In this document: positions 6,217 to 37,603 of the stretch, one piece after another | Layout of the letters: each line of letters begins with the position of its first letter | Numbering within the stretch: position 1 is the stretch's first letter | IMG/VR virus record: IMGVR_UViG_3300047321_000489 | Coordinates: 1 to 37,603 of that record | Strand: one strand, 5' to 3' | Source: a virus | Length of the DNA: 37,603 nt | Made by a program: the position numbers and the translations under genes | Notes under the pieces: generated by a model | Seen by the model: only the letters and a program-made list of their open reading frames with translations | Database searches by the model: none | What the model was told of the DNA's origin: nothing

Positions 6217-6444
6217 ATGGAACTCAAAAAATACCGGCGGATCGCAGGACTGACGCAAGGCGCGCTCGCCAAAAAATCCGGCGTCGACGTGACGCTGATT
6301 TCGCGCCTCGAGCGCGGCGAACGGCGGACGGCCTCGTATGAAAGCATCGTGCGCCTGGCGCGTGCGCTGAATCTCGAGCCAGAGGAACTCAGTCCGGTGA
6401 CCTTTCACAAGGAGGAGCGGCGTGACACAACGGGCCTCGCGTAA
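6217..6444 (+). CDS. Cro-like XRE regulator
   Basis: 75 aa, one complete XRE helix-turn-helix: Tyr-Arg-Arg-Ile-Ala-Gly-Leu-Thr-Gln-Gly-Ala-Leu-Ala-Lys-Lys-Ser-Gly at about 6-22, then Thr-Leu-Ile-Ser-Arg-Leu-Glu-Arg-Gly-Glu-Arg. Size and divergent position opposite the repressor fit a Cro-type protein that shuts off repressor synthesis. There is no good Shine-Dalgarno sequence before the ATG, and an inverted repeat overlaps the start, so it may be autoregulated. The end overlaps the next gene by 23 bp. Confidence 0.8.
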   Translation: MELKKYRRIAGLTQGALAKKSGVDVTLISRLERGERRTASYESIVRLARALNLEPEELSPVTFHKEERRDTTGLA

Positions 6445-6709
6445 CGTCGTGGCATTCGCCGACCAACGCACCGAAGTCGAAACCGCCGCCGCCGCCGCCT
6501 TCGGCGACGCGCGGTTGACCGTGGCGCAGGCGGCGGCCGAAGCGGCGGTGAGCGAACACACGATCCGGCGCGCGTACGTCTACGGCCATCTTGCGATTCA
6601 GCGGTTCGGGCTGGGGGCGCGCAGTCTGCGGATCAAGCGGCGCGATCTGATCGCGTGGCTCGAGGCCGGCGGGCAGACCGTGGCGCGCGATCGGACGGCG
6701 CGGCGATGA
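6422..6709 (+). CDS. Excisionase-like HTH protein
   Basis: 95 aa from GTG at 6422, preceded by AAGGAGGAG. The core (about 31-80) has the winged-helix pattern of MerR/excisionase-type (HTH_17-like) proteins: Leu-Thr-Val-Ala-Gln-Ala-Ala-Ala-Glu-Ala-Ala-Val-Ser-Glu-His-Thr-Ile-Arg-Arg-Ala, a wing with Leu-Ala-Ile-Gln-Arg-Phe-Gly, and Ile-Lys-Arg-Arg-Asp-Leu-Ile-Ala-Trp-Leu. Its ATGA overlap with the integrase gene suggests it controls excision direction. Alternatively it is simply a transcriptional regulator. Confidence 0.7.
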   Translation: MTQRASRNVVAFADQRTEVETAAAAAFGDARLTVAQAAAEAAVSEHTIRRAYVYGHLAIQRFGLGARSLRIKRRDLIAWLEAGGQTVARDRTARR

Positions 6710-7986
6710 GCATCCGAAAAAAATGCGGGCAGGCGTCGTGGGGCTGTTGTCCGTATGGCGATCATCGCTGTGATCATTCGTGGATCAGTGAAGTCATGAT
6801 CGATCGGGTGCGGCGGTCGCCCGTCAGCATCGATGACTACGCGATCCATCGCGGCGCGACGGTGCCGCACATCGTGACGAAGCGGGACGCGCTGCTGTGG
6901 GAGGCGCGGATCATCATGGACTGGAAGGCTGGACTCGACCCGACCCGCGCGCCTGGCGCGGCACAGGCCAATGCGCAGGCTGACGCCTCCAGTATTGCGG
7001 GGACGCTGGAAGATTACGCCGCCGTCGAAGTCCCGAAACTGCGCGTACAGGCGACGGCCGTGAGCGAGATCCGGCATCTCTCGGCCTACTTCGGCGCCCG
7101 GCCGCTCGTCGAGCTCGAGCGCGAAGCAACGGGCCTCGAGTTCATGTCCGCGCTGCGCGAGGGCTGGCGTCCCCCGCACCTGAAGACCGGCGAGCCGCAG
7201 GAACCGCTCGAGGACGGCCGCGGGCCGGCCGCGGTCAATCGGCTGATGCAGCAGCTCCGGCATTTCATCAACTGGTGTCGGTTCCAGCAGCCGCCCCGGT
7301 TGATGCGCACACCGTTCCATCGCTACGGCATCCAGATCAAGGCGGGCGATGAAGTGCAGCGGACGCGCCGCCTGCAGGAGGGCGAAGAGGCGGCGCTGCT
7401 GGCGGCCTGTGATGTCTTGGACTCCGCCGATCACAAGTACAGCGGCCGGGCGCTCAAGCGGCGGCTGCTCGGGACGCTCTGGCTCGGGGCACGGGGCAGC
7501 GAGCTCGATCGCGTGCTGCTCGCGGACGTCAACTTCAAGACGTGGGACGTCACGCTCAAACGCGGCAAGAGCGCGCCGCGGACGGTGTGGCTCGCGGAGG
7601 AGAGCCCCTTGCGGCCGCTGCTCGAGCAACGGCGGTTCTTGAAGCCGGACGAGTACGTCTTCGGCGACGACGAAGGGCACCTGTACAACTGCCGCAGCGC
7701 GTGGGAAACGGTCGTGCTCCTCGCGCATGGGAAGATCCAGCCGGACGGTGCCGGGCGCACCTCGGAGCAGGCGGCGATCGACTTTGCCGCGATCAATCTC
7801 CATCTCCATGATCTGCGGCGGGAGTGTGCCTCGCGCTGGTGGGAACAGCGGATCGATCTGCTGAAGATCTCGCGCTGGTTGGGGCATGCGGACTTCCGGA
7901 TGACGCAGCGCTACCTCCAACTGACCGACCAGCATTTCGGCGGCCGGGACATGGAGGAGACGTTGACCGGGAGGCGGCGCCCGTGA
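6706..7986 (+). CDS. int: Tyrosine-family integrase
   Basis: 426 aa from the ATG at 6706. The catalytic set is visible: Arg263 (Gly-Ala-Arg-Gly-Ser-Glu-Leu), Lys288 (Arg-Gly-Lys), His368-Asp-Leu-Arg371, His394 (Trp-Leu-Gly-His), and the nucleophile Tyr403, nine residues after His394 as usual. The SAM-like core-binding domain lies at about 100-215. The N-terminus has a Cys/His-rich stretch (Cys7, Cys14, Cys15, His19, Cys22, His24), possibly a small metal-binding arm-site domain. The attP core and repeat arms follow immediately, the usual int-attP order. It catalyses integration into, and with Xis excision from, the host tRNA-Phe gene. Confidence 0.95.
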   Translation: MSIRKKCGQASWGCCPYGDHRCDHSWISEVMIDRVRRSPVSIDDYAIHRGATVPHIVTKRDALLWEARIIMDWKAGLDPTRAPGAAQANAQADASSIAGTLEDYAAVEVPKLRVQATAVSEIRHLSAYFGARPLVELEREATGLEFMSALREGWRPPHLKTGEPQEPLEDGRGPAAVNRLMQQLRHFINWCRFQQPPRLMRTPFHRYGIQIKAGDEVQRTRRLQEGEEAALLAACDVLDSADHKYSGRALKRRLLGTLWLGARGSELDRVLLADVNFKTWDVTLKRGKSAPRTVWLAEESPLRPLLEQRRFLKPDEYVFGDDEGHLYNCRSAWETVVLLAHGKIQPDGAGRTSEQAAIDFAAINLHLHDLRRECASRWWEQRIDLLKISRWLGHADFRMTQRYLQLTDQHFGGRDMEETLTGRRRP

Positions 7987-8006
7987 TTACGCCGAAATTA
8001 CGCCGG
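7986..8006 (+). repeat. Integrase arm-type repeats, left pair
   Basis: Two copies of an ATTACGCCG-based motif: 7986-7994 (one mismatch at its right end) and AATTACGCCGG at 7996-8006. The first starts inside the integrase stop codon. The same 11-mer is found at 8092-8124 and 8366-8376, flanking the attP core, so these are probably integrase arm-binding sites. Confidence 0.7.
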
Positions 8007-8091: not shown

Positions 8092-8124
8092 AATTACGCC
8101 GGAATTACGCCGGAATTACGCCGG
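8092..8124 (+). repeat. Three tandem 11-bp integrase arm sites
   Basis: AATTACGCCGG occurs three times head to tail at 8092-8102, 8103-8113 and 8114-8124, one helical turn apart. With the pair at 7986-8006 this makes five sites on the integrase side of the core. The AT-rich 5' part stands out in GC-rich DNA. Confidence 0.75.
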
Positions 8125-8196
8125 TAAGCGATTTTCTCGCAAAAGGCCAGAGCCATCGCGTCGCCGCAAGTGCTTGGCTTGTAAGGGGTTGGAGTG

Positions 8197-8241
8197 GGTG
8201 GCGAGGGGCGGAATCGAACCGTCGACACTACGATTTTCAGT
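8197..8241 (-). other. attP: attP core, 3' half of tRNA-Phe(GAA)
   Basis: Read on the minus strand these 45 bases fit tRNA geometry from position 31 to the first two Cs of CCA. They contain the anticodon loop CTGAAAA with GAA anticodon, 3' anticodon stem TCGTA, variable loop GTGTC, T stem GACGG, T loop TTCGATT, T stem CCGCC with one A-C mismatch, acceptor strand CCTCGCC, and discriminator A. The next base is C rather than the A of CCA. There is no 5' half, so this is not a tRNA gene. Integration here would rebuild the 3' end of the host tRNA-Phe gene. Confidence 0.9.
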
Positions 8242-8396
8242 GGGGTAGACCCCGTTTCCCTGAGTGGCCCTGCCTAAGCTCTGCTAGTGATTTCCTAGGA
8301 AAACCATCGATTGGCACGGCAGGGCTAGCCGGGGCTAGTCTGGGTTCTCGATTCTTTTTGGATTTAATTACGCCGGCAGCTCATCCACGATGTGGG
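8242..8396. other. Right arm of attP region
   Basis: No gene seen. It holds a small GGGG-TAGA-CCCC hairpin at 8242-8253, two GGGCTAG copies 10 bp apart (8322-8328, 8332-8338), and a single integrase arm-type AATTACGCCGG at 8366-8376. The GGGCTAG pair could be excisionase or host-factor sites; this is speculative. Confidence 0.5.
8366..8376 (+). repeat. Integrase arm-type repeat, right arm
   Basis: One exact AATTACGCCGG copy on the far side of the core. Direct repeats on both sides of the core, more on one side than the other, are typical of tyrosine-integrase attP sites. Confidence 0.7.
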
Positions 8397-8615
8397 CTAC
8401 GGCTTGGCCTTGCGCGCGGCCTTCCGCGCGGCGGCGGACGCCTGGCCGGCCTTCTTGGCGCGCGCCGTTCGTTCGGCGGGGGTCATGCGCTCCAGCGACA
8501 TCTTGCCGCCGATCTTGCCGCCTTTGGCGCCCTGCTTCCGAAAATAGGCCGCCACGTCCGGCGGCAGGTCTTTCCGAAAATAGGCCGCCACGTTCGGCGG
8601 CAGTTTTTTGGCCAT
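8397..8615 (-). CDS. Small basic KGG-type protein
   Basis: 72 aa, very rich in Lys, Ala and Arg. The middle, Lys-Gln-Gly-Ala-Lys-Gly-Gly-Lys-Ile-Gly-Gly-Lys, followed by Met-Thr-Pro-Ala-Glu-Arg-Thr and an Ala/Lys-rich tail, matches a family of small basic proteins I recall from GC-rich soil bacteria, with unknown function. The segment Leu-Pro-Pro-(Asn/Asp)-Val-Ala-Ala-Tyr-Phe-Arg-Lys occurs twice in tandem at the N-terminus. It lies alone on the minus strand beyond attP, divergent from the early promoter. The base composition of the protein suggests nucleic-acid binding. Confidence 0.65.
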   Translation of the reverse strand: MAKKLPPNVAAYFRKDLPPDVAAYFRKQGAKGGKIGGKMSLERMTPAERTARAKKAGQASAAARKAARKAKP

Positions 8616-8658
8616 CGTCTCATCTTAACCCGGCTTGTGTTGTGGACGCCGTTCCTTG

Positions 8659-8688
8659 TTGACAACTAATGGGGGGTTTAGTTACAAT
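8659..8688 (+). promoter_or_regulatory. Early rightward promoter with palindromic operator
   Basis: TTGACA at 8659-8664 and TACAAT at 8683-8688, with an 18-bp spacer, form a near-consensus sigma70 promoter, rare in this GC-rich sequence. An inverted repeat, AACTAA (8664-8669) and TTAGTT (8678-8683), sits exactly between the two boxes and overlaps their edges. This is a likely repressor operator. It would drive the recombination and replication operon beginning at 8745. Confidence 0.75.
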
Positions 8689-37470: not shown

Positions 37471-37603
37471 GTCATCGCGTCGCGGATCTTTTCTCTGCCT
37501 GCTGAGGGCAAGGTGATCGCATGAGCAACTTCGGCACCGTGATGCCGGCGCCCTATCAGACGGTGTTCGATAGCAACGGCGATCCGGTGTCCGGCGACCT
37601 GGT
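37471..37603. repeat. Terminal direct repeat, right copy
   Basis: Second copy of bases 1-133, with A instead of G at 37597. It holds the spike gene start (ATG at 37521) truncated by the window edge. It should be merged with the left copy when the genome is closed. Confidence 0.9.

Follow-up and report, generated by a model that had tools for sequence, protein, structure and literature searches.

A predicted attP in the 3' half of a tRNA-Phe(GAA) gene, flanked by 11-bp direct repeats, in a temperate soil phage

The region that follows the tyrosine integrase gene in the phage record IMGVR_UViG_3300047321_000489 (hereafter the window, i.e. the whole stretch of 37,603 nucleotides analysed) is, judging from its sequence, very probably the attP of a temperate phage that would integrate in the manner of lambda at a host tRNA-Phe(GAA) gene. 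The core is the 3' half of that tRNA, its position and pairing are conserved among phages with related integrases, and repeats of 11 bp are found again and again on either side of it. The arrangement is real and probably functional; as a class it is already known, and the window phage adds another example.

Results

The window is bounded by a 133-bp direct terminal repeat (positions 1-133 and 37471-37603, with one mismatch over the 119 bases compared, the preceding 14 having been matched by eye), and can therefore be regarded as the complete or nearly complete genome, about 37.5 kb long, of a temperate phage. The record is thus probably a closed genome, though it may be classed otherwise. The phage comes from soil and encodes a terminase, a portal, a major head protein and a RecT.

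The integrase is encoded on the plus strand at 6706-7986, from an ATG start in a frame open from 6655. It matched the Pfam family PF00589 (E 4e-11) and the integrase family phrog_1 (E 2e-27), and comprises an N-terminal domain (about residues 1-84) and a catalytic domain (about 222-410). Its predicted fold matched the lambda, HP1 and XerA recombinases, the catalytic domain resembling known tyrosine recombinases, and Y403 is invariant among its relatives. The whole model aligned from residue 1 with full-length lambda Int, and the 84 N-terminal residues were modelled as strands and helices. When this N-terminal domain was searched alone, Foldseek gave no match below E 0.1, and the Pfam arm-domain family gave none in the integrase; in a second structural comparison, the best match was the arm-binding domain of the HAI7 integrase (Z 4.7, 3.5 A over 61 residues, a score below the safe range), and the arm domain of a P4-like integrase came fourth (Z 3.7, a low score). 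The first loop of the N-terminal domain contains, within window positions 6706-6783, a cluster of the form C-x(n)-C-x4-H-x-C-x-H, present in six of the seven members of the group (L012 is the exception), which is possibly a metal site.

Immediately upstream, at 6422-6709 on the plus strand, lies a gene for an HTH_17 protein (PF12728, E 4e-6), whose stop overlaps the start of the integrase gene (ATGA). A gene of this kind was found a short distance upstream of the integrase in the records of five relatives (all five), and the protein is likely an excisionase, i.e. a recombination directionality factor (RDF).

Six relatives of the integrase were found in IMG/VR, with identities to the window protein ranging from 91% to 38% (L005, 91%; L009, 73%; L010, 47%; L003, 41%; L012, 39%; L015, 38%), L004 (also 91%) being a further, partial near-copy record. 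An exact copy of the 45-base core described below occurs in three other viral records (L003, L004 and L005), and L009, L010, L012 and L015, which were found through integrase alignments and a degenerate core search, carry homologous cores. A second integrase search with a wider alignment gave no new relative, and an integrase search of annotated phages and plasmids gave no match. In all the integrase relatives found, a tRNA-Phe(GAA) 3' half lies directly after the integrase gene, on the opposite strand. No portal or terminase like those of the window was found in the records of L003, L009 and L010; the portal of L012 is 30% identical to that of the window, and L015 has a portal 29% and a terminase 47% identical. 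The backbones are thus mostly unrelated: the integration module is shared, and most of the remaining genome is not. Direct repeats of 127-203 bp, differing at one position at most, bound the records of L003, L009, L010 and L012, and each record searched contains a single copy of the core, which fits free, unintegrated phage genomes.

The core occupies positions 8197-8241 on the minus strand and runs from base 31 of the tRNA to the CC of its 3' end. Searched alone, these 45 bases aligned with positions 30-71 of the Rfam tRNA model (71 being its last position) over 8241-8199 of the minus strand, with E 0.0085. This score is below the gathering threshold, and no match was reported with a 301-base query; the low score is accounted for by the core being half a tRNA. 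For the same reason, it is expected that ARAGORN found no complete tRNA in the window. Read on the minus strand, the core consists of the anticodon loop CTGAAAA (8234-8240, with the anticodon GAA at 8236-8238), the variable loop GTGTC, the T-arm GACGG-TTCGATT-CCGCC, the acceptor strand CCTCGCC, A73 and CC. One T-stem pair is non-standard in the Rfam alignment (A50.C64, positions 8222 and 8208), and the 3' end is encoded as ACC-C instead of ACC-A, the last CCA base being altered in the window alone. The initial annotation, which had recognized a tRNA-Phe(GAA) 3' half with one T-stem mismatch and a changed last CCA base, is thus borne out by the Rfam match and the alignment. Similar stretches carry a tRNA-Phe annotation in other phages. 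ARAGORN hits in L009 (tRNA-Phe) and L010 (tRNA-Cys) overlap the core but continue into phage DNA; they were read as pseudo-tRNAs.

When the seven cores were aligned, identity was found to begin at the anticodon loop or at most three bases before it. In the T-stem, pair 50-64 is A-U, C-G or G-C and pair 52-62 is A-U or G-C, so that both sides change together, although this covariation rests on just four distinct cores and its statistics are modest. Such paired changes are expected if a functional tRNA has to result from each phage copy. The A50.C64 mismatch is common to the window, L003, L004 and L005; a sequencing error was considered and rejected, since L003, with its 41%-identical integrase, carries it along with L004 and L005. 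Given that L003 and the window share the exact core despite widely different integrases and arms, the mismatch most likely reflects the targeted host tRNA or else an allele of the tRNA that such prophages have spread.

The fate of the host gene could also be a different one. In tRNA-dependent lysogeny of the Fionnbharth type, about 10 bp are shared and the host tRNA is destroyed (PMC10865867); by analogy, the tRNA half would here be a short recognition core, integration would break the host tRNA, and a phage tRNA would compensate for the loss. The mismatch and the altered CCA end of the phage copy, which could make a rebuilt tRNA weak, would agree with this. However, in the known cases the shared core measures about 10 bp and the phage encodes a complete tRNA of the same isotype (PMC10865867), whereas the core of the window is a 45-base tRNA half and ARAGORN detected no tRNA gene in the window; in every relative, moreover, the tract in common extends over the entire 3' half, and its variation is by changes in both partners of a pair. 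We therefore consider this reading very unlikely, and the core is better understood as a half that would restore the tRNA.

An 11-bp sequence, AATTACGCCGG, occurs exactly at 7996, 8092, 8103, 8114 and 8366, always on the plus strand, and GATTACGCCGA at 7985, also on the plus strand, differs from it by two mismatches. Five repeats thus lie between the integrase and the core and a single one beyond the core, as the initial annotation had stated, though the first of them starts at 7985 and not at 7986. Its description of three exact tandem 11-bp units also agrees with what was found: the units at 8092-8102, 8103-8113 and 8114-8124 start at -145, -134 and -123 from the anticodon centre, and this putative arm-type triplet is followed, across the core, by the far-side unit at 8366-8376 (+129). 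The first unit of the triplet is conserved in L004/L005, as is the far-side unit, there in the form AGTTACGCCGG; of the six repeats, the closest relative keeps four, namely three next to the integrase and the one across the core, while those at 7985-7995 and 7996-8006 were seen in the window phage only. Elsewhere in the 37.6 kb only two similar sites exist, each with one mismatch. An 8-mer is repeated six times over both flanks, a count matched by none of 1000 dinucleotide shuffles, whose maximum was four.

Two features were observed to the right of the repeats. A small basic ORF on the minus strand (8397-8615) contains a repeated PPxVAAYFRK segment, and the underlying DNA duplication gives two near-identical hairpins (8548-8603). 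A near-consensus sigma-70 promoter (TTGACA, 18, TACAAT; 0.2 expected by chance in the stretch scanned) lies at 8659-8688, just right of attP, and reads in the direction of the RecT region.

It should be noted that L046, an unrelated phage of 41 kb, has one copy of the tandem AATTACGCCGGAATTACGCCGG (a 22-mer) as well, at 8599-8620, followed by degenerate copies. There it lies between the portal and the next head gene, about 17 kb from that phage's own, different integrase, and no att core was found near it; its occurrence in L046 is perhaps a matter of chance. The repeat by itself is therefore no proof of an arm site, and the argument has to rest on its position around the core and on its recurrence in relatives.

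Clear head-to-tail 11-bp repeats were found in five of the six relatives, and a period of 11 in six of the seven attPs including that of the window. The repeat unit is AATTACGCCGG in the window and L005, GATTGGGCGGC in L010, AAGGACACCAC in L003, AAATGCACCAC in L015 and CAAGTACACAG in L012; L009 has only a weak unit of the type ATTACGCCC, which 670 of 1000 shuffles equalled. In the window and the five clear relatives, the integrase-side units are 11 bp apart and the orientation is the same on both sides of the core. All six have an integrase-side pair starting at -136 to -134 and -125 to -123 from the anticodon centre, and the far-side sites start at +129 (window and L005), +118/129/140 (L012), +145/156/167 (L015), +145/156 (L003) and +156/167 (L010). 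That the distances on the integrase side stay almost constant while the sequence has changed offers the strongest case for reading the repeats as integrase arm sites. Core and arm sites had been predicted from a single sequence, and both recur in the relatives, with a new arm sequence for each integrase lineage. In L003, L012 and L015, the 3' end of the integrase gene itself contains the arm repeats of that side, so that the protein has a variable C-terminal tail.

This recurrence also bears on the simplest alternative, namely that a decayed tRNA fragment and unrelated repeats came to lie near an integrase by chance. Taken singly, the parts do occur elsewhere, since other phages have tRNA-Phe genes and L046 has the tandem repeat; the same arrangement, however, recurs in relatives, including those whose integrases are only 38-47% identical and whose backbones are mostly unrelated, so that coincidence is hardly conceivable.

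A second possibility is that the core is correctly recognized and the repeats bind an excisionase or another regulator, for instance one controlling the integrase gene, instead of an integrase arm domain. The HTH_17 gene is close to the integrase gene in the relatives, attP DNA is also bound by excisionases, and the co-variation of repeat and integrase is clear only among close pairs: over all pairs, the similarity of arms and of integrase N-termini is not significantly correlated (rho 0.28, p 0.22). However, RDF sites are usually on one arm, as with lambda Xis, whereas these repeats flank the core left and right, all pointing the same way and with their distances conserved; the integrase, moreover, possesses an additional N-terminal domain of arm-domain-like topology (a weak fold match). 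This alternative appears unlikely, and we continue to regard the repeats as candidate binding sites of the integrase.

The initial annotation had proposed a search of bacterial genomes for the core. The layout of core and arms was recovered in the relatives, and the bacterial contigs gave no match: neither the exact 45-mer nor a degenerate one with pair 52-62 fixed as G-C (which would miss hosts of the L009, L010, L012 and L015 type) was found in GTDB-species contigs. Likewise, no full tRNA-Phe with a window-type anticodon arm was found in viral contigs, and no integrated copy or prophage with a rebuilt tRNA and a displaced fragment among the records searched. As a consequence, the prophage boundaries and the binding of the integrase remain predictions.

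Discussion

Arm-type sites flank the core on both sides, as in lambda-type (heterobivalent) systems, a likeness seen at the sequence level. We infer the following course of integration. The N-terminal domain of the integrase would hold the 11-bp repeats on both arms while its other domains hold the core, and recombination with the host tRNA-Phe(GAA) gene would take place in the 7-bp anticodon loop (8234-8240), the putative strand-exchange region. At one end of the prophage, the host 5' half would then be completed to a full tRNA by the phage-borne 3' half; the opposite end would be marked by the host 3' half that had been displaced. The HTH_17 protein encoded just upstream of the integrase would be the likely excisionase. 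The rebuilt tRNA may be imperfect, given A50.C64 and the lost final A of the CCA end.

Several known systems share parts of this arrangement. In lambda Int and the P4-like HAI7, to which the window integrase is likened, arm-binding N-terminal, core-binding and catalytic domains are combined with arm sites that flank the core on either side; unlike them, the window integrase has no Pfam arm-domain match, and six of the seven members of its group have the Cys/His cluster. The Mesorhizobium element ICEMlSymR7A also has a tyrosine integrase (IntS) beside attP and targets a phe-tRNA gene, with an attP of 283 bp, five arm-type sites and an RDF of the helix-turn-helix type (PMC11963761). In contrast to the window phage, it is an ICE, its arm consensus is TGKTGGTATC and its rdfS is far from intS, whereas the HTH gene of the window overlaps the integrase gene. 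The Cluster K3 mycobacteriophage Pixie has a 47-bp tRNA-Lys core flanked by directly oriented arm sites, two of them to one side and three to the other; Pixie and Tweety have related integrases and a common core with different arm sequences, and other Cluster K phages carry 11-bp arm repeats (PMC3203893). There, however, the target is tRNA-Lys, attP lies 5' of the integrase gene and integration is confirmed, while in the window the target is tRNA-Phe, attP lies 3' of the gene and integration is predicted only. Finally, in the anticodon-centred (A) islands of Islander, the crossover is at the anticodon loop, the element carries the displaced tRNA part and the gene is rebuilt (PMC4383910). The window likewise has an adjacent tyrosine integrase gene and a tRNA 3' fragment from the anticodon loop onward, although those islands were mapped in chromosomes and the window attP is known from the free phage form alone.

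Concluding remarks

A single uncultured phage genome suffices to read an attP together with the tRNA it targets and the arm sites around it, and the reading holds in relatives. The core can serve as a host marker, as any genome having a tRNA-Phe 3' half CTGAAAATCGTAGTGTCGNNNGTTCGATTCNNNCCCTCGCCA is a candidate host. Together, the seven attPs make up a natural series in which the core is of one class, the geometry on the integrase side is nearly fixed and the arms differ; such a series lends itself to studying how the N-terminal domains of integrases select their arm sites.

More speculatively, mostly unrelated soil phages might share a tRNA-Phe integration module in an unsequenced bacterial lineage, with the arm sequence free and the geometry fixed; as yet we regard this as a tentative idea. 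If it were true, some of these phages would install in their hosts a tRNA-Phe with an A.C pair at 50-64, and the specificity of the arms would amount to a swappable code, which might serve to avoid cross-talk between co-resident prophages.
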